Source of the DNA: Pholiota molesta
Taxonomy: Eukaryota > Basidiomycota > Agaricomycetes > Agaricales > Strophariaceae
Direction: 5' to 3'
NCBI GenBank assembly: GCA_014925825.1
Contig: JACGCK010000066.1
Span: forward strand, 185,101 to 249,100
DNA: 64,000 nucleotides
The position numbers and the translations under genes are program-made. The notes beneath the pieces are model-generated. The model was not told where the DNA came from. It ran no database searches and worked only from the letters and a program-made list of their open reading frames with translations. The first letter of the stretch is position 1. Each line of letters starts with the position of its first letter. Shown here one piece after another: positions 50,842-63,168 of the stretch.

Positions 50842-51033
50842 TGTAAAGAGGCGCTTTACGGGTAGTTCTTAAGCTGTACAAACTAAGCCAGAACCAATAT
50901 AATTGGTAGACTACGTGGTACAAGCAAAAAGATCTACTGTCTGATTACAAATGCAAGTACTTAAATAGTGGCATCACCGAGGGTGATGCCAAACAAGATA
51001 TAATATGATGCGTCACGGGGCACGCCCGTGACA
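50842..51033 (-). repeat. LTR A, 192 bases (inverted orientation)
   Basis: Reverse complement begins TGTCACGGGCGTGCCCCG and ends CGCCTCTTTACA, so it has TG...CA ends. By eye it is identical to LTR B (52308-52499). The LTR contains three hairpins: TCACGG/CCGTGA at one end, GGCATCACC/GGTGATGCC in the middle, and GTAAAG/CTTTAC at the other end. Confidence 0.93.
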
Positions 51034-51124
51034 TACCCCCCCTTGAGATCGCTGCGCGATCTCTAACAAAATTTAACAAGAATATGGCAAGTCCATATGA
51101 TGATGATTGGTTGCAGGAGGACTG

Positions 51125-52285
51125 TTAGTCCTCCATGTGTGGTTGTGATGGTGGGGGTGGGTCGTCGTGGTCGTTCGCGTGGTTTTCGCCCCCATCGTCC
51201 GTGTTCTCCATGACGGCGTCCTGCGTGCCATCGAGCGTTGTATCATTCGTGTTAACGAGTGAAGATGTAGTGCTAGCAACCGCGTTAGCGGTTGCATCGT
51301 CACTGCTGCTCGTGGGCAACGCGGCAGGAGGTGGGGGCGGAGGCGGCGGTGCGATTGCGGTGTTGGTGGTAATGGCTGTTGCAGCCAGCAATCTCGCACG
51401 TAACTCCGCGACACCCGCGTCGGCGTCGTTGCGCGAGCGCCCGGATAGGTAGCGGCGATATGGTGTATCGCCTGTCAGCAGCCATCCTCGCGCGTTGAGA
51501 CTAAACACCCCTCGTTGTTCCTCGGTGTCGAGGATTATATGCATACGGAGGATCTCGTCCTCCGTTGGGTGCCTCCAGCCATCCCATGCGGGTATCGCAG
51601 GCGGGGCGCCATATTGGTCAAGTCGGTGCAGGCGCTCATTGTCCTGCTCATCCAGTAGTGCCCTATCGAGGGCCGATCCATGGTAGTGCTGGTCCAAGAA
51701 TTGCAGCCCGTACAGATATGCGTGATCGACCCAATCGGTTGGGATGCAGTTATGAATGAGGACTTGGATGATGTCCTCAATCGTCATATTCGACGCATGG
51801 CGGTCGTCGATGACTAGGCGCTGGAACACGAACTGCGGGCCAGCTTGGGGGTGCATTGGTGCGCCTGGATTGTTGACGTTGTGCGCGGCAACAGCATCCG
51901 TGTAACGGAAAGGCATTGCAGTCAGTGCGGCGTACAGCCGCATGAAGACTGATCGCGCGTGGGAGTTGGCGGGGGCCAGCATCCTTCCGAGGCCATAACC
52001 GAACAGGGAGCGACGATGGATGCGGTAGGAGTGGTCCATGACCACCCCCAGGAATGGGTTGGATGAACCTGGCCGTCCATGTAGCATGATGTATTGACCC
52101 ATGACGTCCTGGTTCAACGATTCACGGGGATCAGGTGTGGGCATGCCCGCACCTCGTGTGCTGTTGGATGGGTTGCTCACTATTGCTCGAGAGAAGTCGC
52201 GTGCTATGGGTGCAGGTCCCATAAAGTGTGGCCCCACATCTGGTTGGTAGCTCTGGTTGAATCCAGAATCCATGAACGCGGCCAT
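51125..52285 (-). CDS. Accessory protein of the retrotransposon (ORF5), truncated at its N-terminus
   Basis: A 386-codon open frame, start MAAFMDSGFNQSYQPDVGPH at 52285 and stop at 51125. It corresponds to the later part of ORF5 of the complete element, beginning at its residue 146. No zinc knuckle, reverse transcriptase, integrase or known accessory motif is visible. Blocks: FSRAIVSNPSNSTRGAGMPT, VMDHSYRIHRRSLFGYGLGR, VFMRLYAALTAMPFRYTDA, IEDIIQVLIHNCIPTDWVD, WDGWRHPTEDEILRMHIILD, then a Pro-rich stretch and an acidic, Asn/Asp-rich tail. Unlike the copy in the complete element it has no frame break. I do not recognise the family. Confidence 0.7.
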   Translation of the reverse strand: MAAFMDSGFNQSYQPDVGPHFMGPAPIARDFSRAIVSNPSNSTRGAGMPTPDPRESLNQDVMGQYIMLHGRPGSSNPFLGVVMDHSYRIHRRSLFGYGLGRMLAPANSHARSVFMRLYAALTAMPFRYTDAVAAHNVNNPGAPMHPQAGPQFVFQRLVIDDRHASNMTIEDIIQVLIHNCIPTDWVDHAYLYGLQFLDQHYHGSALDRALLDEQDNERLHRLDQYGAPPAIPAWDGWRHPTEDEILRMHIILDTEEQRGVFSLNARGWLLTGDTPYRRYLSGRSRNDADAGVAELRARLLAATAITTNTAIAPPPPPPPPAALPTSSSDDATANAVASTTSSLVNTNDTTLDGTQDAVMENTDDGGENHANDHDDPPPPSQPHMED

Positions 52286-52307
52286 GGTGCGATCCCATAA
52301 CGCTGGG

Positions 52308-52499
52308 TGTCACGGGCGTGCCCCGTGACGCATCATATTATATCTTGTTTGGCATCACCCTCGGTGATGCCACTATTTAAGTACTTGCATTTGTAATCAG
52401 ACAGTAGATCTTTTTGCTTGTACCACGTAGTCTACCAATTATATTGGTTCTGGCTTAGTTTGTACAGCTTAAGAACTACCCGTAAAGCGCCTCTTTACA
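52308..52499 (+). repeat. LTR B, 192 bases (5' LTR of the complete element)
   Basis: Begins TGTCACGGGCGTGCCCCG and ends CTCTTTACA. It carries the same three hairpins as LTR A, and the TATTTAAG stretch in the middle could be part of a promoter. It abuts the inverted block on its left with no target-site duplication. Confidence 0.93.
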
Positions 52500-52578
52500 C
52501 TTTTTTAAGCCTTCCAAATAACTTGGAAAGACCCTTCCTTACCGAAGGAAAATCAAGATCTATTCTTGAACACACCCC

Positions 52579-53973
52579 GTGAAAATTTCACGTAACAGAA
52601 TGGCAGAAGGTGACCACCTGTCAACAGGTGGGAACTCCGAGGACCCACGCACTCCAGTGCCAGCAACACCGGAGTACGTGGGTACTACCACAACGTCGCC
52701 CAGCAGGACTCGTCCTGCAGGCACCGCATCGCAGCTCTCAGCTGTGGGCGCAGAGAGCGATCGTGGCTCTTTCCTGATGAGAGATATCAGGCAGCCACAA
52801 CCTCGGACATCAACCGAGGGATCTGAGGCGATCGGTCAACGATCGCACGATATCGACGATGGCGTCGATCTCGCCAGACTAACGAATGGTCTCGAAGACC
52901 AGATCGAGCTTGTATGGAATATACACAACGTCGATCGAGATGATCGACGACAAGTACTGCGAGCAATGGCGACGCAGTACGTCATACAAGCTATACACCA
53001 CTCAGGTCAACATATACCTGAGGGATCAGAGAGATGGATATCTCTAATCATCGTGACCTTGACACGTATCGCGAAGCGATACGAATTGATTCGAAACGAC
53101 AAGAGGAGTTCAAGGGCATCCACACCAATGTCCCCCGTCTTGATCCAAACACCATCAGTGGTACCAACACTGACACATCGAGGAGGGTCAACGACCACGT
53201 CCCCTCCCACGGCATCACGAATGGTCGGAGAACCATTTACGCACTCATCCCCCACGTTGGAAATGGCAAGGGCGGGTCTCGACGAACCACGACGATGGGA
53301 CGAAACGAACGAACAGTACCAGAGACGACGCGCTGCGTCTAACCGCCTACAAGCTCGCGAGACGAGCGCGGTACCATTATATACCGCAACCAACAATGTG
53401 GGCGAAGCCCCCAACACGGATAATCGGGTAACGTACCCAAACGTTACCGTAAGAACGCCGAGGGCTATGAATTGGAAGGACAGAGTCGCCTACCAACGCC
53501 TCAGGCGAGACGACATTAATAGAACTGGTGAATCGTTAATCGATGACCAGGGCGTCGAGTTACGAGGACCAAACGCATACGACCTGGATTATCCAGGAGA
53601 ATCATTAGGAAATGATGCACCGACACAGGTTAAATTCGAGGAGGTCAACGACCTCCCGGAAAGGATAATCAGTCCTGACCGACGCGACGACTATCGCGAA
53701 GAACGACGTGATAACTACCGTGAAGAACGACGCGACGATTATCGCGAAGAACGACGTGATAACTACCGCGAAGAACGACGCGACGAATATCGTGAGGAAC
53801 GACGGAAGTATGGCCCACGGGACCATACCCCAAAGTCAGCAGTACGGTTCAGCTTTGAGCCAAGAGACAGCGAGGTCTTGGACCTCGGCACCGCTCCCGC
53901 AACCAATCGACATTTTAGTCGAGGATACTCAACACCGAGGTCGCTCGGACCTCGCCACGACGCCCTGGCGTAG
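52579..53973 (+). CDS. Retrotransposon ORF1 (upstream of gag), function unknown
   Basis: 464 codons in one frame, stop TAG at 53971-53973. An alternative start is the ATG at 52600. The N-terminus is Ser/Thr/Pro/Arg-rich. A predicted helical segment is around DLARLTNGLEDQIELVWNIH and QVLRAMATQYVIQAIHHSGQ. Residues about 370-412 form five tandem copies of an eight-residue unit (D/N/E)YREERRD. No capsid or zinc-knuckle motif was found here; the capsid domain is in the next ORF in another frame, with a 29-base gap. It may be the N-terminal half of a Gag that was once fused. Confidence 0.65.
   Translation: MKISRNRMAEGDHLSTGGNSEDPRTPVPATPEYVGTTTTSPSRTRPAGTASQLSAVGAESDRGSFLMRDIRQPQPRTSTEGSEAIGQRSHDIDDGVDLARLTNGLEDQIELVWNIHNVDRDDRRQVLRAMATQYVIQAIHHSGQHIPEGSERWISLIIVTLTRIAKRYELIRNDKRSSRASTPMSPVLIQTPSVVPTLTHRGGSTTTSPPTASRMVGEPFTHSSPTLEMARAGLDEPRRWDETNEQYQRRRAASNRLQARETSAVPLYTATNNVGEAPNTDNRVTYPNVTVRTPRAMNWKDRVAYQRLRRDDINRTGESLIDDQGVELRGPNAYDLDYPGESLGNDAPTQVKFEEVNDLPERIISPDRRDDYREERRDNYREERRDDYREERRDNYREERRDEYREERRKYGPRDHTPKSAVRFSFEPRDSEVLDLGTAPATNRHFSRGYSTPRSLGPRHDALA
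53688..53813 (+). repeat. 24-base tandem repeat in ORF1 coding (D/N/E)YREERRD
   Basis: Five units of 24 bases with alternating synonymous changes (TATCGCGAAGAACGACG versus TACCGTGAAGAACGACG). The encoded peptide is strongly charged, a likely coiled or nucleic-acid-binding arm. Confidence 0.85.
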
Positions 53974-54002
53974 TTGAAGCTTCGGATCGTCACCGATCCA
54001 TC

Positions 54003-54971
54003 ATGGAGCAACGGCTTACTACACTGATTCATGAAGCTCTTAGCGTCAGGATATCTTATCCTGATGGTGTCAAATTTAATCAGAAACTCGACACCGGTGA
54101 AAAATACACCGGTTCATCCAAGTTCGCTGACTTGGAAAACTGGCTATCAGATTTAGCCTACAAGATGGCGGTGCGCCAGCTAGGAGGAAAAGAATTAGAC
54201 CGCATGCGAGTAATAATACTCGGTGAACACCTAGGTGGGGAAGCCCACGAGTGGTATATTCGTCATGTACTCAGTGTTAGTCGTACCAAACTCGGTTGGA
54301 CGTTCGAAGCTGTAATAATAGCTTTATACAACCGATTTATCCATGCTACGACAATGCAGGATGCACGCGAGGGCTTCAGGAAAGCCAAGTACTCCGCATC
54401 TCGCGGAGTACAAGCATACTATGACGAACTCATTGGGTTCGCCACAAACATGGCTGCCTACCCCGATGATTTCTCATTCATCGAAGTATTCCTTGAAGGA
54501 ATACCTAAGGACATGCGAACTGAGCTCCTCCGCGAGCGAGGATTATCACCTGAAGCTCACACTATGGAGGACTTCATTGCCTTCGCTATAGCACATGAAT
54601 CACGAGTCAAGACAGATGATTATTACAATCGCCGAGCGAGAATACACACCGCGCCGTCGACCGCAAAGCCCAATGAGGCGACGACCGATCGCCGTCGCCC
54701 GGGCTCGCAGAAAACACATCGACGCACAAATCATACATCGCCAAGGGAGGATCGACCCTCTCAACCAACCGCGACGAAAACGCCGCTGAAAGATAACCCA
54801 AGCCAGGAGGCTCCACGTAACAAAACGTGGAACAGAGCCTCTGGCAGTGGCAATACCCTGACATGCTTCAACTGCGGAGGTGAAGGACACTTCTCCAAGA
54901 CTGCCCACAACCCCAAAGAACAAGAGGGTCCATGTACGGGCAGCCCATTCCGAGGACACGCCCTCGGATAA
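54003..54971 (+). CDS. gag: Retrotransposon Gag (capsid with zinc knuckle)
   Basis: 322 codons, start MEQRLTTLIHEALSVRIS. The capsid-type domain includes KFADLENWLSDLAYKMAVRQ, HEWYIRHVLSV, WTFEAVIIALYNRFIH, ARQ-type REGFRKAKYSASRGVQAYYD and IEVFLEGIPKDMRTELL, as in retrotransposon gag families. A basic Pro/Thr/Arg-rich linker follows, then a zinc knuckle CFNCGGEGHFSK. The fourth ligand, normally Cys, reads as Ala in this frame; a TGC codon is present one frame over at 54902, so the frame shifts here through an indel or a programmed event. The continuation at 54880-55311 in another frame is acidic (DDADSCASDCEACAEDHDEG). Confidence 0.85.
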   Translation: MEQRLTTLIHEALSVRISYPDGVKFNQKLDTGEKYTGSSKFADLENWLSDLAYKMAVRQLGGKELDRMRVIILGEHLGGEAHEWYIRHVLSVSRTKLGWTFEAVIIALYNRFIHATTMQDAREGFRKAKYSASRGVQAYYDELIGFATNMAAYPDDFSFIEVFLEGIPKDMRTELLRERGLSPEAHTMEDFIAFAIAHESRVKTDDYYNRRARIHTAPSTAKPNEATTDRRRPGSQKTHRRTNHTSPREDRPSQPTATKTPLKDNPSQEAPRNKTWNRASGSGNTLTCFNCGGEGHFSKTAHNPKEQEGPCTGSPFRGHALG

Positions 54972-55291
54972 TGGAGACGCGACAGCGAACGATGGCGACG
55001 ACGCAGACAGCTGCGCGAGTGACTGCGAAGCATGTGCGGAAGACCACGATGAAGGCCAGACCTTCACCGACATCGAGGTCGAGGGTTACCAATCTGAGGG
55101 TTCCTCAGATTTCATGCGGGCGATGACTGTATCCCTGCCGACAGAAATGAGGACCCAGTCCCCGCAACCCGCGATCGCTTATCTGCGGTTAACGCAAGCG
55201 CCACTAAGGAGGAAATCCTTATGCGGAGGGTACGCGTGCGTACCTCGAACAATAGCCGTGTCCGACCTGTTGTACGCAACGAGGACAAAGA

Positions 55292-55714
55292 ATGTCTCGC
55301 GACATACTTGAAGGTCGGTGGCATGGGATGCATGGGTCCTCTGGGACTCAGGAAGCACCACAACTGGTATCACACCAACGTTTGCGCATGTCGCAGACAT
55401 CGTGGTGGACACCTATTAGACCACACATCCTCCAATTAGGCACAGTCGGGAGTCGATCAATGATTAAATACGGAGCGGATGTCCTCATCGACATCTTCGG
55501 GAAAATGTCGACGATATATGTCGACATCGCTAACTTTGATCGCTACGACATGATCGTAGGCACTCCTTTTATGCGACAGCATAAGGTCATCCTTAACTTC
55601 GTTACAAACGAAGTTATTATCGACGGTAAAGCACTGGCAGCGACGCGCGTCCAATTAAAGGACACAGATGGTCGTTTGAGGAGGTACAGAGCCTCCGAGA
55701 AAGTTAAGGAGTGA
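55292..55714 (+). pseudogene. pol: Retrotransposon aspartic protease region
   Basis: Contains LGTVGSRSMIKYGADVLIDI and FDRYDMIVGTPFMRQHKVIL, the flap and C-terminal portions of a retropepsin-like protease. The catalytic DTG(A/S) is not visible in this frame upstream, so the N-terminal part is either in another frame or lost. It lies between gag and reverse transcriptase, as expected in the gypsy order. Confidence 0.65.
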
Positions 55715-56357
55715 CTGCCTACCCCGAAAGCGACTGTGGAGGATATCGCGGACGCCGGAGATGGACTTAAAATGCCATCTCCGCTGTCGACCACCCAAAC
55801 ATGTTGCTGAGTGAGGAAGAGTTCTTATCTCTTCCCAAGGGGGGGATAAGGACAGAAAAAACGATATGGGTAAGACACGGGTAAGAAAACCCACAACAAA
55901 ACACACAAGAAACATGCAAAACCTGTCCCAAAAAGTATGGAAATACCATACTGCCAACCTACGTCATCACGAGTCAAGGTCGAAGACCTTGTAACAGATG
56001 AGGAGGACCAAAGACGCATGGACAACCTGGCCAAAGAAATCCAGGGAGACCAAGTTCCGAAAGAACGACAGTCGTTCTGGGATAGACCGACACCACCACC
56101 ACAATTCGAGTGGATGCCCGATCCACGAATGCCGACAGAATGGAACGCCATGGTATCAGATATGAGAAACAAATGATTGGGCGAGGTTCAGACCTCGCGG
56201 AGAGTGTTATCGAACACCAGAGGACGACGAAATATCCTCAACTCAAGAATTCACAGGGACTTGGTACCCTGATAACACGGAACGCGAACGACTGCATGCA
56301 CAATCAGTAGTCAGACTGGAGACACCAGTAGACGAATGGAGCACATCCATTCAAAAA

Positions 56358-58568
56358 TTGCGTGCAAGATTCGATGAACCCAAACGGAAACAGCCTCCGG
56401 ACAAGAAGCCGGACAGAAAAGGAAAAGGAAAAGCGACAGGCCTTTCCGAGGAAGACTATCCTCGATTACGCCAACAATGGCATGACGAGTTTCATGATAT
56501 GGTACAAGGCGTCAAGGAGGTTCTACCCCCCTTCAGAGAAGTAAACCATGAAATTCATCTAATTGAGGAAAACAAGCGGTACGCGTACCACATGCCTCGA
56601 TGCCCACTATCACTACGAGACGAGTTCTACGAAAAACTCAACCGATACGTGAACGCAGGATGGTGGGAAGCCAAATCGTGGCGCACAGGCCGCACCGATT
56701 ATGTGCATCCCCAAGAAGGATGGACGCCTTCGTACAGTAGTCGATGCACGACTACGAAACGACAACACAGTAAAGGATGTTACGCCTCTACCCGACCAAG
56801 ACGTCATACGTAGGACGTCGCGCGAGGAAAGATCAGATCGAAAATCGATCTGGCCGATGCATATGAACAAGTCAGGGTACGCCCTGAAGATGTACATAAA
56901 ACGGCATTTGCAACAATTGCTGGGACATACGTTAGCAACGTTATACAGCAGGGCGACTGCAATGCCCCTGCCACATTCCAGCGCCTAATGACGTCCATAT
57001 TCAGGGACGCCATCGGCCGCTTCATGCACGTATATCTGGATGACATATTCATCTTCTCAGATAGTGTCGAGGAACATGAAAGACACCTCAAATATGTATT
57101 CGAGCGCTTACGCGCTAGTCAGCTGTTTTTGAAATGGAAAAAGTGCGAATTATACGCCGAAAGAATCGATTGCCTTGGTCATATCATCGACGACCAAGGA
57201 ATACACCCTGACGCGGACAAGTTATCACGCATACGCGAATGGCGAGTACCGCGGAATTACAACGACATCCAACGATTCGTTGGGCTAGTCAACTATGTAG
57301 GAAATTTCCTACCCAATATATCTGCCTATACCGGGCCTCTCCTCGCGATGACAATGAATGGCGCGCCATTCCACTGGAGACCACTACATCAGCGATGCTT
57401 TGACATGATCAAACGAATATGCTGCAAGACGCCGATCATACGACCCATCGACCCGAAATCCGGTGAGCCTATATGGCTCATATGCGATGCGTCGAAAACG
57501 GGCGTTGGAGCAATGTATGGACAAGGTCCATCCTGGCAACAATGCAGACCCGCCGGATTCATGTCCAAAAAGTTCACTAGCGCCCAGCAAAACTATGCTG
57601 TACATGAGCTCGAGACACTGGCCATACTAGAATCCCTAATAAAGTGGGAGGACAAGCTAGTAGGACACCGCCTACATGTCATCACAGACCATAAAGCTCT
57701 TGAATTCTTCAAGACACAGGTGAACTTATCCCATCGGCAACGCCGATGGACGGATTACATGTCGCGATTCGACTTTGACATCACATACATCAAAGGGGAA
57801 TATAACAAGGCGGCGGACTGCTTATCTCGATACTACGAGAACGATACTAGCGCCGACGTCTACGAGCCCCATGAATACGTTCGCGCAGACGCAAGAATTG
57901 ATCCGGAAGGAGAAGATCTCCCGGTTGAACGGACTCGAGAGATTAAGGAGCGCGTAGTCGAGCTGAGGGCGATGCAAGCTAGGGAACTGCGACGCAGTAG
58001 GCGCCTGAATGACAAGCGCGAAGAGCGCGAACACGAAGCGCAAGAGATGAAAGAGGCCGAGGGCCTCAATGACTTGGATCACGATAGTGATATGGCGACC
58101 CGCGCGAGTTCTGCCGGAGCGAACCACGAGGACATGAGCCTCGGAGAGGCACTATTCAACAGGAATAATGTGCCCGCGCCAAAGCTGCCAAATGATGACG
58201 AGTTCATCACAAAAATAAAAGCAGCATATGCCAACGACAAACTGTTCTCGCTGGTCATGGACCAGCCATCAGAACATCCCGCCTTTGAAATAAAGGATGG
58301 GATAATATGGTTCACGAACCATAACGAAAACCGCGTAACGTGCGTACCACGCGAGCGCGAACTCATAACCAAGGTTCTCACTCAGGCCCACGAAGTTGTC
58401 GGTCATTTCGGAACAACGCACATCCGAATACATACGGAGATGGTATTGGTGGCCACAGATCGCCAAGGACGTGCGCGAGTTCTGTCGAACGTGCGAGTCA
58501 TGTCAGAGGTCGAAGACCTCAACACGACCACCCGCTGGAAAGCTCCACACACTGCCCGTACCAACTAA
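56358..58568 (+). pseudogene. pol: Reverse transcriptase and RNase H region, frame-broken
   Basis: The reading frame starts in 56358-56813 (LRDEFYEKLNRYVNAGWWE), passes into a different frame at 56701-56988 (CIPKKDGRLRTVVDARLRND), and is restored at 56988-58568. That last stretch has the palm motif VYLDDIFIFSD, then ERIDCLGHIIDDQGIHPD and WRVPRNYNDIQRFVGLVNYV. RNase H begins around WLICDASKTGVGAMYGQG, with VHELETLAILESLIKWED and HVITDHKALEFFKTQ. Further downstream is a Glu/Arg-rich spacer (RELRRSRRLNDKREEREHE). The catalytic residues of both activities are present, but the frame breaks make this copy unlikely to give a full polyprotein. Confidence 0.9.
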
Positions 58569-59672
58569 ACCTTGGGACTCGATAGGAATGGACTTCATTG
58601 GTCCATTCCCTGAATCCAAAGGATTTAACTACCTTTGGGTAATTATATGCCGAATGACAAGTATGGTTCACTTAATACCAGTGAACACAACCACAACGGC
58701 ATCAGAACTTTCATGGATATACCTACGAGAAATCGTGAGGCTACACGGCCTACCAAGCACGATCGTCAGCGATCGAGACTCGAAGTTCACTTCGCGATGG
58801 TGGCGTGAGCTCCATAAGATATTAGGCACGCGCCTATTAATGTCGACATCATTCCATCCGCAGACTGATGGACAGACTGAGCGTGCCAATAAGAACGTTG
58901 GACAAATTTTCGTACTCTGGTCCATGCAAACCAGAAAAACTGGGTTGATAAAGTGGCAATGACCGAATTCGCGATAAACGCGAGCATATCGGAAACCACG
59001 AAATATGCACCGTTCGAACTGAATGGAGGATACATGCCCTCCATGATCCGCGAAATTCGAAGTAACGAGGGCGTCGCGAAGGGTATTAGGTCCTTCGCAG
59101 AGGCTGCCCTCGAGCACCTAGCCGAGGCGCATGACGCGATTATTGAAGCGCGCGCGCTACAAACACATCACTCAAATAAACGTCGTGGCGAGGAACTTGC
59201 CCTCGCAACAGGAGACTTGGTATATTTATCGACCAAGAATTTGAAAATAGCAAAGAGCAGAGCGCGGAAGCTCTGCCCGAAATACATTGGACCATATCGT
59301 GTATTGATGGCATACCCCAAGACATCGACATACACTTTGCAATTGCCTACAGCTCTGCAAACACGCAGGATTAATCCTACATTCCATGCCTCGCTACTGA
59401 GGCCCTACCACCCATCCGATGACGCGCTATTCCCTAACAGGGCTCAGCCAGAGCCCTATGACTTCGGCGCCGCCGACGATCAGGAATGGTTCGTAGACGA
59501 TATACTGGGCCATCGGTGGACAACTGATGGCCACATCGAATATGAGATTCGATGGAGTGCCGGCGACACTACATGGGAACCCCATGCCGAATGCAAGGAC
59601 CTAGAGGCCTTGGACCGATACCTCGAAATGCAGGGCGCTAGACGGCCCTCGCAGCTATCTAAGCGGACATGA
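58396..59672 (+). pseudogene. pol: Integrase with C-terminal chromodomain, frame-broken
   Basis: The zinc-binding HHCC region straddles a frame break (HEVVGHFG...IH then FCRTCESCQRSK). The catalytic core has MDFIGPFPESKG, VSDRDSKFTSRWW and HPQTDGQTERANK, giving the D, D and E positions. A second break near 58950 leads to AINASISETTKYAPFELNGG, the GPYRVL region (PKYIGPYRVLMAYPKT), and a chromodomain (WFVDDILGHRWTTDGHIEYE, IRWSAGDTTWEPH), stop at 59672. Chromodomains on integrases can steer insertion to particular chromatin. The two frame breaks are single-site indels. Confidence 0.9.
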
Positions 59673-59825
59673 GCCGGCCCGACACGCGATCACGAGACCG
59701 CAATCGTGAGAACGATTTGGACGGAGTTCCAAAAATTTAATCGCGTCGAAATCGACAAGGCCCTGCATCCCTCCTTATACAACACCCACCCACCACACCC
59801 CATCGCCTACCCACTCATTCCAACT

Positions 59826-61029
59826 ATGGCACAGCGCGGCGACTGGCAGCAAGGGCGTGGACAGCGAGGCGGACGCGGCCGGAGCCGCGGACAGCAGATC
59901 CGAGGCGGGGCTGGATCTGGTAGGGGGGGAACGGGGGCGCTCAGCGCCACTTTTCCGACCCCTTCCAGCAAACGGCCCCCACATACCAAAATCCATTTGG
60001 AGGGTACTACCCTCCTGGACCACCGATGATGGGACAATCCCATCCACCACCACCAACGATGGGGCAACCCCATCCCTCATACAATCAACCAGGTGGATCC
60101 TACCACCCCCCACCACCAAACCATGGAGGATACCATCCCCACCCACGAGAAACGCACCCGGCCCGAGCCTGACGCGCACGCAATCAGACCAACCCCCTCA
60201 CCCTAGGGACAATGGCAACAGAACGCCCCCTAGGAAGAACAAGGGGAAACAGAGAGCACGGAGTGTGGACTCAGCGCCACAGGATGACGAGGACGAGGCA
60301 ACCAAGCGCCTCAATGAGCGGCTACTCAGAGCAGGGATCTCGATGTCCCTAGAAGGAGACGAGCCCGATGATGAGACGGCCATCCTCATCAACGAGATCC
60401 TCCTACGCCTGGAAGCAGCCCGAGCGGAGGTGGACCACCTCCGCACAGCGAATGCGACTCTCAGGAAGGGCCGCAAACGAGAAGCGCCATCCGAAGAGGA
60501 CCGCGATGAAGAACAACGCCCCCCAAAACGGCGTGACTTCCAAGCCAGCGAGGACGGAGGGTCCTCGTACACCCATACACCCAACCCACCTGTAGGGCAT
60601 GCCCTACCACCAGCACCACACGACGAGCGCGTAGAGAGGGCCGGACCCTCACAACCGCGACGAAACATGCGCGCGTCGTCGTCGCGCCAGCCGCGATACG
60701 AAACGAGGGACCCACCCTCAGCGTACGAAGAGGACATCAAGATGGACACGGATGCGTACATCCCGTTCGTACCAAGGGGATTCGGACCAGTGACACTCGT
60801 CACGATGCCACCCAGCTACCCCGCCCCGCCTGCCGTCGAGAACGACCCAACAATCGAGCGGGCATCGCCCCCTCGCGACTCCGACGAAAGCTCGAGCGAT
60901 GAGTCTGTTGAGTTGTGGGACGAAGACCCACAAAGCATTGCTCGCGCGCAGGGCGGTGACTGGCCATCAGAGGCGGACCTCAGGAATCGCCGAAAGCACA
61001 ATCGCGACGTGAAGGAAGAGAAGGAGTGA
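59826..61029 (+). CDS. Retrotransposon ORF4: RGG-rich start, acidic and coiled-coil body, unknown function
   Basis: Begins at MAQRGDWQQGRGQRGGRGRS (59826), an RGG-type nucleic-acid-binding stretch. A Pro/Tyr/His/Gly-rich low-complexity part (near YPPGPPMMGQSHPPPP) follows in another frame. The body in frame 59857-61029 has an acidic run and a likely coiled coil (ETAILINEILLRLEAARAEV), basic KRKR-type patches, and DDETAILI. The end overlaps the start of ORF5 by four bases (61026-61029), so the two could be translated together. No known domain recognised. The frame switches near 59940-60180 suggest small indels; the boundaries are uncertain. Confidence 0.55.
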
Positions 61030-62657
61030 GGGCTAAAGCCCTCGCCGAGAAGAGACGACGAGTCGAACGACAAATGTCTGGACGTGTTCCAGACGGACTT
61101 GGGGTGGTAAGGATACCACCCTCAAACTCAATTGAGCGTAACAACGCCATGCTCGGGATGTGGCCGAGACAGAGGATCTACTACTCGGCCCGCACCAACA
61201 TCGTGTATGTTGGCCAGAGTGCGGCTGTGGCGTCTCAATTCGAGATGCAGAATCAATCAGGGTACCGCCCTGTTCATGGGCACCCCCTCTACTCGCGTGT
61301 TCCAAGGGGCGTCCCACGCAATCCAGAGGAGCTCGATCGTCTCATGACGATTGCCACCAACGCTCGTCTGGATGACACGGTGCGTATGGAGGCCTACTGC
61401 CTCCTAACCGAGTTCCACACCGTCATCGGGCGCATACACCCAGCGTTATGGGATCGCACCATGGCCGCGTTCATGGATTCTGGATTCAACCAGAGCTACC
61501 AACCAGATGTGGGGCCACACTTTATGGGACCTGCACCCATAGCACGCGACTTCTCTCGAGCAATAGTGAGCAACCCATCCAACAGCACACGAGGTGCGGG
61601 CATGCCCACACCTGATCCCCGTGAATCGTTAAACCAGGACGTCATGGGTCAATACATCATGCTACATGGACGGCCAGGTTCATCCAACCCATTCCTGGGG
61701 GTGGTCATGGACCACTCCTACCGCATCCATCGTCGCTCCCTGTTCGGTTATGGCCTCGGAAGGATGCTGGCCCCCGCAACTCCCACGCGCGATCAGTCTT
61801 CATGCGGCTGTACGCCGCACTGACTGCAATGCCTTTCCGTTACACGGATGCTGTTGCCGCGCACAACGTCAACAATCCAGGCGCACCAATGCACCCCCAA
61901 GCTGGCCCGCAGTTCGTGTTCCAGCGCCTAGTCATCGACGACCGCCATGCGTCGAATATGACGATTGAGGACATCATCCAAGTCCTCATTCATAACTGCA
62001 TCCCAACCGATTGGGTCGATCACGCATATCTGTACGGGCTGCAATTCTTGGACCAGCACTACCATGGATCGGCCCTCGATAGGGCACTACTGGATGAGCA
62101 GGACAATGAGCGCCTGCACCGACTTGACCAATATGGCGCCCCGCCTGCGATACCCGCATGGGATGGCTGGAGGCACCCAACGGAGGACGAGATCCTCCGT
62201 ATGCATATAATCCTCGACACCGAGGAACAACGAGGGGTGTTTAGTCTCAACGCGCGAGGATGGCTGCTGACAGGCGATACACCATATCGCCGCTACCTAT
62301 CCGGGCGCTCGCGCAACGACGCCGATACACATATCGCCGCTACCTATCCGGCGCTCGCGCAACGACGCCGACGCGGGTGTCGCGGAGTTACGTGCGAGAT
62401 TGCTGGCTGCAACAGCCATTACCACCAACACCGCAATCGCACCGCTCCGCCCACCTCCTGCCGCGTTGCCACGAGCAGCAGTGACGATGCAACCGCTAAC
62501 GCGGTTGCTAGCACTACATCTTCACTCGTTAACACGAATGATACAACGCTCGATGGCACGCAGGACGCCGTCATGGAGAACACGGACGATGGGGCGAAAA
62601 CCACGCGAACGACCACGACGACCACCTCCACCATCACAACCACACATGGAGGACTAA
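61026..62657 (+). pseudogene. Retrotransposon ORF5, unknown function, broken in this copy
   Basis: Starts MRAKALAEKRRRVERQMSGR and reads open for 265 codons (to 61823), then continues after a one-base deletion near 61780 in another frame (MRLYAALTAMPFRYTDAVAA onward). A second disturbance is a ~46-base tandem duplication at 62275-62368. The ending (QPHMED) is regained at 62657. Joined, the protein would be about 530 residues. The N-terminal part includes GMWPRQRIYYSARTNIVYVG and DTVRMEAYCLLTEFHTVIG. No known motif. It is not an envelope-like protein: no signal peptide or membrane helix is visible. The inverted copy at 51125-52285 keeps the later part intact. Confidence 0.65.
62275..62368 (+). 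repeat. Tandem duplication of 46-48 bases inside ORF5
   Basis: Two nearly identical units run from 62275-62322 and 62323-62368, each starting GATACAC and containing CCGCTACCTATCCGG. The inverted copy has only one unit, so the duplication arose in (or was assembled into) this copy. Confidence 0.85.
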
Positions 62658-62717
62658 CAGTCCTCCTGCAACCAATCATCATCATATGGACTTGCCATAT
62701 TCTTGTTAAATTTTGTT

Positions 62718-62748
62718 AGAGATCGCGCAGCGATCTCAAGGGGGGGTA
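62718..62748 (+). promoter_or_regulatory. Hairpin and polypurine tract before the right LTR
   Basis: A perfect hairpin AGATCGC-gca-GCGATCT is followed by CAAGGGGGGG and then TA, directly before the TG of LTR C. The purine run is the expected primer for plus-strand DNA synthesis. The same arrangement is seen in inverted form next to LTR A at 51034-51060. Confidence 0.8.
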
Positions 62749-62938
62749 TGTCACGGCGTGCCCGTGACGCATCATATTATATCTTGTTTGGCATCACCCT
62801 CGGTGATGCCACTATTTAAGTACTTGCATTTTGTAATCAGACAGTAGATCTTTTGCTTGTACCACGTAGTCTACCAATTATATTGGTTCTGGCTTAGTTT
62901 GTACAGCTTAAGAACTACCCGTAAAGCGCCGCTTTACA
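62749..62938 (+). repeat. LTR C, 190 bases (3' LTR of the complete element)
   Basis: Same sequence as LTRs A and B except for a few one-base indels in homopolymers and a C-to-G change (CGCCGCTTTACA instead of CGCCTCTTTACA). TG...CA ends. The flank after 62938 (TTTGG) does not repeat the flank before LTR A (GCATT) or LTR B. Confidence 0.92.
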
Positions 62939-63168
62939 TTTGGATTGTAGCCGAAATAATCCTGGACCTTCATAACCTATGGGTATATGGGGCCCATCGG
63001 ATAATGGATTTGATCATCGTCATGCTGCTGGTATGCGTATGTTTCCCAAATGGAACCTGCCGTCCATTCAATGACTTGTCCTTTGCACATATCCAAGTAT
63101 CCGAATTGGAGCAGGAGGGTTTGTACTGGGATTAGGCTGAGAAAACATCCGTGTATCAACCGCAGGGG
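62939..63168. other. Right flank of the retrotransposon
   Basis: Ordinary AT-rich sequence with no coding signal; it runs into the 3' end of the following minus-strand gene. Confidence 0.4.

Follow-up and report, generated by a model that had tools for sequence, protein, structure and literature searches.

The 64,000-nucleotide stretch of Pholiota molesta DNA analyzed here (the window), taken from an assembly of 65.6 Mb in 625 contigs, carries at positions 52308-62938 a Ty3/gypsy long terminal repeat (LTR) retrotransposon saturated with short perfect inverted repeats. This saturation, first reported in an initial annotation of the sequence, is confirmed. With a probability of about 70%, the hairpins are best read from their sequence as RNA structure akin to genome-scale ordered RNA structure (GORS) in an LTR retrotransposon lineage. 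We favor this reading because the excess stands above strict nulls, stem and loop sizes are limited, the trait is concentrated in lineages of the reverse transcriptase (RT) tree, stems change more slowly than control sites, and paired changes in the main clade (clade A) are largely compensatory.

Throughout, a stem is a perfect inverted repeat of 6 or more bases (6+) unless stated otherwise, with a loop of up to 15. Inspection of the element (52308-62941) reveals 151, 79 and 34 stems of 6+, 7+ and 8+ bases versus 30.8, 8.2 and 1.8 in 20 dinucleotide shuffles, which corresponds to ~5-, ~10- and ~19-fold enrichment. The window from 1 to 50840 is near chance (188, 46 and 13 versus 162.8, 36.6 and 8.0; 5 dinucleotide shuffles), in agreement with the initial annotation, which had described nearby host genes as free of the pattern. 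That annotation had also counted at least 17 stems of 5-8 bases in 52579-53093, where chance was estimated to give about one 6-base stem and fewer than one of 7+. With loops of 1-13, this segment holds 25 stems of 5+, 14 of 6+, 8 of 7+ and 4 of 8+, and 200 dinucleotide shuffles average 5.9, 1.4, 0.39 and 0.10. Each of the ten stems quoted there lies at its given place or a base or two away, and the pattern does continue beyond the first open reading frame (ORF1), with 10-21 stems of 6+ in every kb bin of 52001-63000. The proposed spacing of one hairpin per ~30 bases overstates the density of 6+ stems, which occur roughly once per 70 bases.

The assignment to Ty3/gypsy follows from an LTR pair present as a direct repeat and the order gag-RT-RNase H-integrase; the full order is LTR, ORF1, gag, RT, RNase H, integrase, ORF4, ORF5, LTR. 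Features of the locus are as follows, with stem counts given as observed versus expected.

50842..52307, minus strand: inverted 3' end (part of ORF5 and LTR) of another near-identical copy, directly abutting the 5' LTR
52308..52499, plus strand: 5' LTR, 192 bp, TG...CA, one of the direct repeat pair
52350..52372, plus strand: LTR hairpin, 10-bp stem with an inner 9-bp stem, loop of 3
52579..53973, plus strand: ORF1, 464 amino acids, no Pfam match, the most structured part of the element
54003..54971, plus strand: gag with zinc knuckle, 10 stems of 6+ versus 2.4
55256..56813, plus strand: putative protease and N-terminal part of pol, split over several frames here
56814..58418, plus strand: RT and RNase H, 18 stems of 6+ versus 5.8
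58369..58962, plus strand: integrase zinc-binding and core domains, 8 stems of 6+ versus 1.85 (540 bases tested)
58893..59672, plus strand: integrase C-terminus (SH3_Tf2-1) and chromodomain-like end, 15 stems of 6+ versus 1.95 (705 bases tested)
59857..61029, plus strand: ORF4, 390 amino acids, no Pfam match, 14 stems of 6+ versus 4.4
61026..62719, plus strand: ORF5 region, split over several frames here, 10 stems of 6+ versus 3.3 in 61026-61820
62749..62938, plus strand: 3' LTR, 190 bp, with a purine-rich tract just before it

Synonymous codon shuffling, with 300 shuffles per coding segment, places stem density in the element above its controls, where at most 1 in 300 shuffles reaches the observed 6+ count in all seven segments tested. 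Under a null that keeps protein, codon usage and dinucleotides, ORF1 retains 27 stems of 6+ versus 5.3 and pol (copy L002) 52 versus 13.6, which bears out the proposal that coding sequence was shaped mainly by synonymous choice. Differences between relatives fall nearly all at third codon positions (by eye, ~900 bases). The inverted fragment is likewise stem-rich (16 stems of 6+ versus 6.2 in 50847-52307).

We surveyed 40 pol loci from this one genome (L001-L040), expressing 6+ stems as a ratio to synonymous expectation. Clade A (93-100% protein identity) ranges from 3.1 to 4.9 and clade B (79-82%) from 1.9 to 4.0. Clade C (59-66%) is divided: L014, L015, L017 and L019 reach 1.7-3.2, versus 1.1-1.2 for L013, L018 and L020, which have no perfect-stem excess. 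The remote clade D (L021-L024, with L027) lies at about 2, and the 15 loci left (L025, L026, L028-L040) range from 0.5 to 1.8; in the RT-tree dataset, L032 comes to 1.9 with z 3.1. If loci with a z above 3 for stem excess are labeled on the RT tree (30 rows), no fewer than 5 changes of the label are required, a count inflated by rows just under the line (L011 and L019 at 2.5). Within this genome the stem trait follows lineage among relatives, and it is missing from the majority of the other Ty3/gypsy loci tested.

Stem and loop sizes are bounded. In pooled clade A and B sets, loops of up to ~12 are enriched with peaks at 3 (75 stems) and 5 (76 stems), each 6.8-fold, with loops of 4 and 6 at 4.1- and 5.0-fold; a loop of 23 shows a lone, unexplained 2.0-fold enrichment. 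Stems of 3-4 bases are not enriched in the A sets and stems of 5 bases are enriched 1.6-fold. With loops of 1-11, stem lengths in A and B run from 6 to 11 bases, and none is longer than 11.

Folding energy was analyzed locally, as z against synonymous shuffles in 40-nt windows, and as minimum folding energy difference (MFED). Local z runs from -5.3 to -11.5 for clade A, from -4.5 to -12.9 for B, from -5.0 to -11.2 for C and from -4.8 to -8.3 for D taken together with L027. Three genes of the phages MS2 and Qbeta give -7.3 to -7.9. In six host stretches, the longest open frames (putative genes) give -1.5 to +2.1; five copia stretches give -0.3 to +2.1, and 13 of the 15 other Ty3/gypsy loci -1.4 to +7.0. 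Among the latter, L028, L030, L033, L036, L037 and L039 show the opposite trend, being under-folded relative to synonymous shuffles (z +2.3 to +7.0). MFED over synonymous shuffles is 14.8-30.3% in A, 19.1% in A2, 16.4-21.9% in B, 9.7-11.3% in C and 10.7-11.4% in D, with 26.7% and 22.3% for the MS2 and Qbeta replicases and negative values for controls (L025 -1.3%, L033 -3.4%, L037 -4.1%, one host ORF -3.0%). With dinucleotides also kept, the codon null leaves 29.4% for ORF1, 16.5% for L002, 12.8% for L008, 8.4% for L014, 9.6% for L013 and 11.9% for L023, versus 0.2% for L025. All 8 of the A-D sets analyzed stay over-stable in windows free of perfect 6+ stems, with sense z from -2.2 to -6.5, and A2, B2, C1, C2 and D do so in windows free of 5+ stems as well (z -3.5 to -6.0). 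The wider trait is excess RNA folding, which one cousin lineage (L013, local z -7.6) shows without any excess of perfect stems.

Comparison of relatives indicates that stems are retained beyond expectation over short distances. Between A and A2 (L001, L005), 18 of 44 stems are unchanged versus 5.3 expected from in-phase shifts, with substitutions at 0.072 in stems versus 0.139 in the control. From L008 to L011, 7 of 27 stems are unchanged versus 0.9. Relative to in-phase controls, the rate of change is 0.39 in A and 0.55 in B for perfect 7-bp stems, and 0.71-0.98 for one-mismatch stems. Pairs joining two third codon positions provide 74 cells in clade A, of which 51 are unchanged, 13 singly changed, 9 compensatory and 1 otherwise doubly changed, such that 9 of 10 double changes preserve pairing; these cells, like those of clade B below, derive in part from one stem or from overlapping lineage pairs and are not independent. 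One count of single-stem pairs across clades was not significant versus its shuffles.

The LTRs provide a further case. The inner 9-bp stem of the LTR hairpin is perfect in six of six aligned LTRs from clades A and B, with loops of 3-4 and one two-sided pair change, in A2; the alignment covers 6 of the 11 LTR places found, and the remaining ones match in the stem. This inverted repeat (52350-52372 and 62789-62811) lies upstream of a TATA-like sequence and is conserved across clades A and B, and could alternatively be a DNA control site. A seeming paired change in the terminal hairpin of the two LTRs was discarded, being one of several homopolymer-length differences that may reflect sequencing error.

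Several results weigh against selected folding of the sense RNA. Between clades A and B stems are mostly lost, with 3 of 44 kept from L001 to L008 and 6 of 28 from L008 to L001. Compensation in clade B does not rise above control (104 third-third cells: 53 unchanged, 41 single, 5 compensatory, 5 other double), so that the test for compensatory changes envisaged in the initial annotation is positive in the main clade and not in the second clade. Two loci outside clades A-D, L035 (z -5.6) and L029 (z -3.7), are over-folded too; L035 is distant from those clades and may represent an independent gain of excess folding. In windows free of 5+ stems, A and B1 retain little excess (sense z -1.4, -1.5 and -1.3). 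The gap between sense and antisense folding is small in A and B, and for L014 (C1) the MFED strand difference is reversed. In a wobble test at a stem length of seven pairs, in clades A and B, one-mismatch stems with A.C are enriched 3.2-fold versus 1.6-fold for G.U and 1.7-fold for others, and those with G.U show hardly any conservation, changing at 0.98 (A) and 0.85 (B) of control. The types of change within stems also differ between clades: changes to G.T are suppressed most in A (0.36, versus 0.51 to A.C) and changes to A.C in B (0.46, versus 0.78 to G.T).

Part of this evidence would suit selection for hairpins in single-stranded minus-strand cDNA instead of RNA, which we consider very unlikely. 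An A.C mismatch in the sense strand is a G.U on the minus strand, so the wobble enrichment points this way, as do the slight conservation of A.C one-mismatch stems (0.71 and 0.78 of control in A and B), the weaker suppression of changes to A.C in clade A, and loops of 3 and 5 in excess of 4, which suit DNA hairpins. However, changes to A.C are the more suppressed in clade B, and sense folding exceeds antisense in 15 of 17 A-D local-folding comparisons (several of near-identical copies) and in 11 of 12 MFED sets, the bias being strong only in L013 (C2) and L019 (C3), with difference z of -4.2 and -4.3. Because MS2 and Qbeta show no consistent preference for G.U over A.C, with both mostly exceeding other mismatches, the wobble test is compatible with sense RNA. 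The minus-strand signal in the first G.U versus A.C counts was set aside, since the phage controls and the divergence test were mixed. The DNA phage phiX174, included as a control, shows little stem excess. The folded strand is likely the sense RNA.

The striking perfection of the stems (10.7-fold enrichment versus 1.6-3.2-fold for one-mismatch stems) would suit a mutational drive, in which nascent cDNA folds back during reverse transcription and one arm is copied from the other, leaving hairpins without function. Such a cause, of the palindrome-making kind raised in the initial annotation, would also account for short loops, spread over the whole element and turnover, for compensatory changes in clade A that are not much rarer than single ones (9 versus 13), and for 3 of 22 polarized gains with at least two changes in one arm (two 2+0, one 4+1); repeat conversion has been suggested for coding palindromes of nematomorph mitochondria (PMC6649704). 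We nevertheless regard it as unlikely. L013, L018 and L020 lack the perfect-stem excess while the near-identical L013 and L018 are strongly over-folded with a sense bias, which arm copying would not produce, and windows without perfect 6+ stems are over-stable. Most polarized gains are single changes (15 of 22) or one change per arm (4 of 22), although these come from overlapping comparisons in which most stems are unresolved. No significant arm bias is found among the few events scored (5'/3' arm changes 16/8 with one outgroup, 6/7 with two, 19/13 in overlapping comparisons). Among 66 recent variants of near-identical copies, probably mostly post-insertion mutations, 2 create a stem versus 3.0 expected and 5 destroy one versus 6.7, a comparison of low power that gives no excess of gains. 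Stem perfection and the compensatory count in clade A leave room for some arm copying there. An artefact of composition or codon usage, or an ordinary feature of this genome, has next to no probability: the element is A-rich on its sense strand, but the excess survives nulls preserving codons, protein and dinucleotides and does not appear in the rest of the window, in the five copia stretches (local folding) or in most other Ty3/gypsy loci tested.

Under the preferred reading, GORS-like folding of the RNA, the strand that folds would chiefly be the sense (genomic) RNA, and the element would profit from a genome that is compact and harder to access, which would help its packaging into virus-like particles. 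Folding may also hide the RNA from silencing. Compaction, packaging and escape from silencing had been suggested in the initial annotation, whose interpretation is partly supported. Single hairpins would be exchangeable, which allows turnover while the density stays high. More tentatively, at somewhat below even odds, we propose that selection acts on RNA folding across the whole genome of a strictly intracellular retrotransposon lineage, to a degree close to that seen in single-stranded RNA phages, with sister families alternating between folds built on perfect hairpins and folds that are imperfect or rich in G.U. To our knowledge, the fungal host has neither interferon nor PKR.

The locus itself (element and inverted fragment) looks rearranged, because the inverted 3' end abuts the element and the 5-base LTR flanks (52303-52307 and 62939-62943) differ, giving no matching target-site duplication. 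Relative to near-identical copies, gaps outnumber substitutions in the stretches compared, and the two LTRs of this copy differ largely in homopolymer length; some frame breaks may for these reasons be sequencing errors. The protease is named from its position, and two pieces of 55256..56813 submitted to Pfam gave no match. At the integrase end, where a chromovirus would carry a chromodomain, PF00385 is a weak match of 22.6 bits, below the cut-off of 25.1. ORF1 contains 24-base tandem repeats at 53677-53820 that encode an Arg/Asp/Glu-rich protein repeat. ORF5 has no Pfam match, and its predicted structure (mean predicted local distance difference test score 38) was not used. A protein search in which the best 7999 candidates were scored yielded at least two ORF5 homologues without telling names, P0001 and P0002, with 63% and 36% identity to the ORF5 of the inverted copy (51125-52282, minus strand). 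Named pol relatives come from the mushrooms Agrocybe, Leucocoprinus and Hypsizygus (60-79% identity). Among viral contigs searched for DNA relatives, three stretches fitted a pattern and none was a relative.

Why some RNA genomes are fully folded is an unsettled question in the field. The present case suggests that selection can act on RNA folding across the genome of an element living solely inside cells; if so, GORS would more generally meet the demands of packaging or of RNA silencing and would not mainly be an escape from vertebrate immunity. A single fungal genome with families of strong, weak and no excess makes the cause testable among natural relatives through small RNAs, packaging and copy number. 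We found no report of such folding in an LTR retrotransposon among the matches listed from open-licence PubMed Central papers.

Comparison with known systems begins with GORS, which the relevant parts of PMC3950689 describe by an MFED over 3%, a spread over the whole genome and a lack of conservation between related genera, with the remark that duplexes predicted in unpublished work stay within 11 bp. The element resembles it in an MFED far above 3% (9.7-30.3% in 12 of 12 A-D sets with synonymous shuffles; 8.4-29.4% in 6 of 6 with codon and dinucleotide shuffles), in folding spread over the coding genome and present in the LTR hairpin too, in short duplexes of at most 11 bp, and in a trait present or absent between related groups. 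It differs in being a fungal LTR retrotransposon (gag, RT, RNase H, integrase) and no positive-strand RNA virus, and in the prominent perfect Watson-Crick stems of the main clade, mostly with loops of 3-6 bases. By these sequence measures clades A-D match GORS, and the element appears to work in the same manner without being an RNA virus.

Relative to MS2 and Qbeta, local folding z in three genes and MFED (27 and 22%) are comparable, whereas MFED of the element's pol is lower (15-22%) and six-pair stems are enriched 1.8-fold in MS2 and 3.0-fold in Qbeta versus 5.2-7.6-fold in five of six A and B sets (3.6-fold in L011). Yeast Ty3, also a Ty3/gypsy element, has genomic RNA with well-folded regions in a SHAPE (selective 2'-hydroxyl acylation analyzed by primer extension) map, and stable regions make up as much as 30% of Ty1/Ty3 RNA (PMC11381356); in contrast, that map, compared through its description in the passages available, consists of functional sites and a folded core, with no hairpin saturation by synonymous choice described there. 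The nearest case of coding repeats is that of nematomorph mitochondria, for which PMC6649704 describes perfect inverted repeats of up to 284 bp in conserved genes, gained and lost dynamically, with no excess of imperfect long repeats. The element shares perfect repeats in conserved genes and their turnover, and differs in that its stems do not exceed 11 bp and its one-mismatch stems are also in excess.

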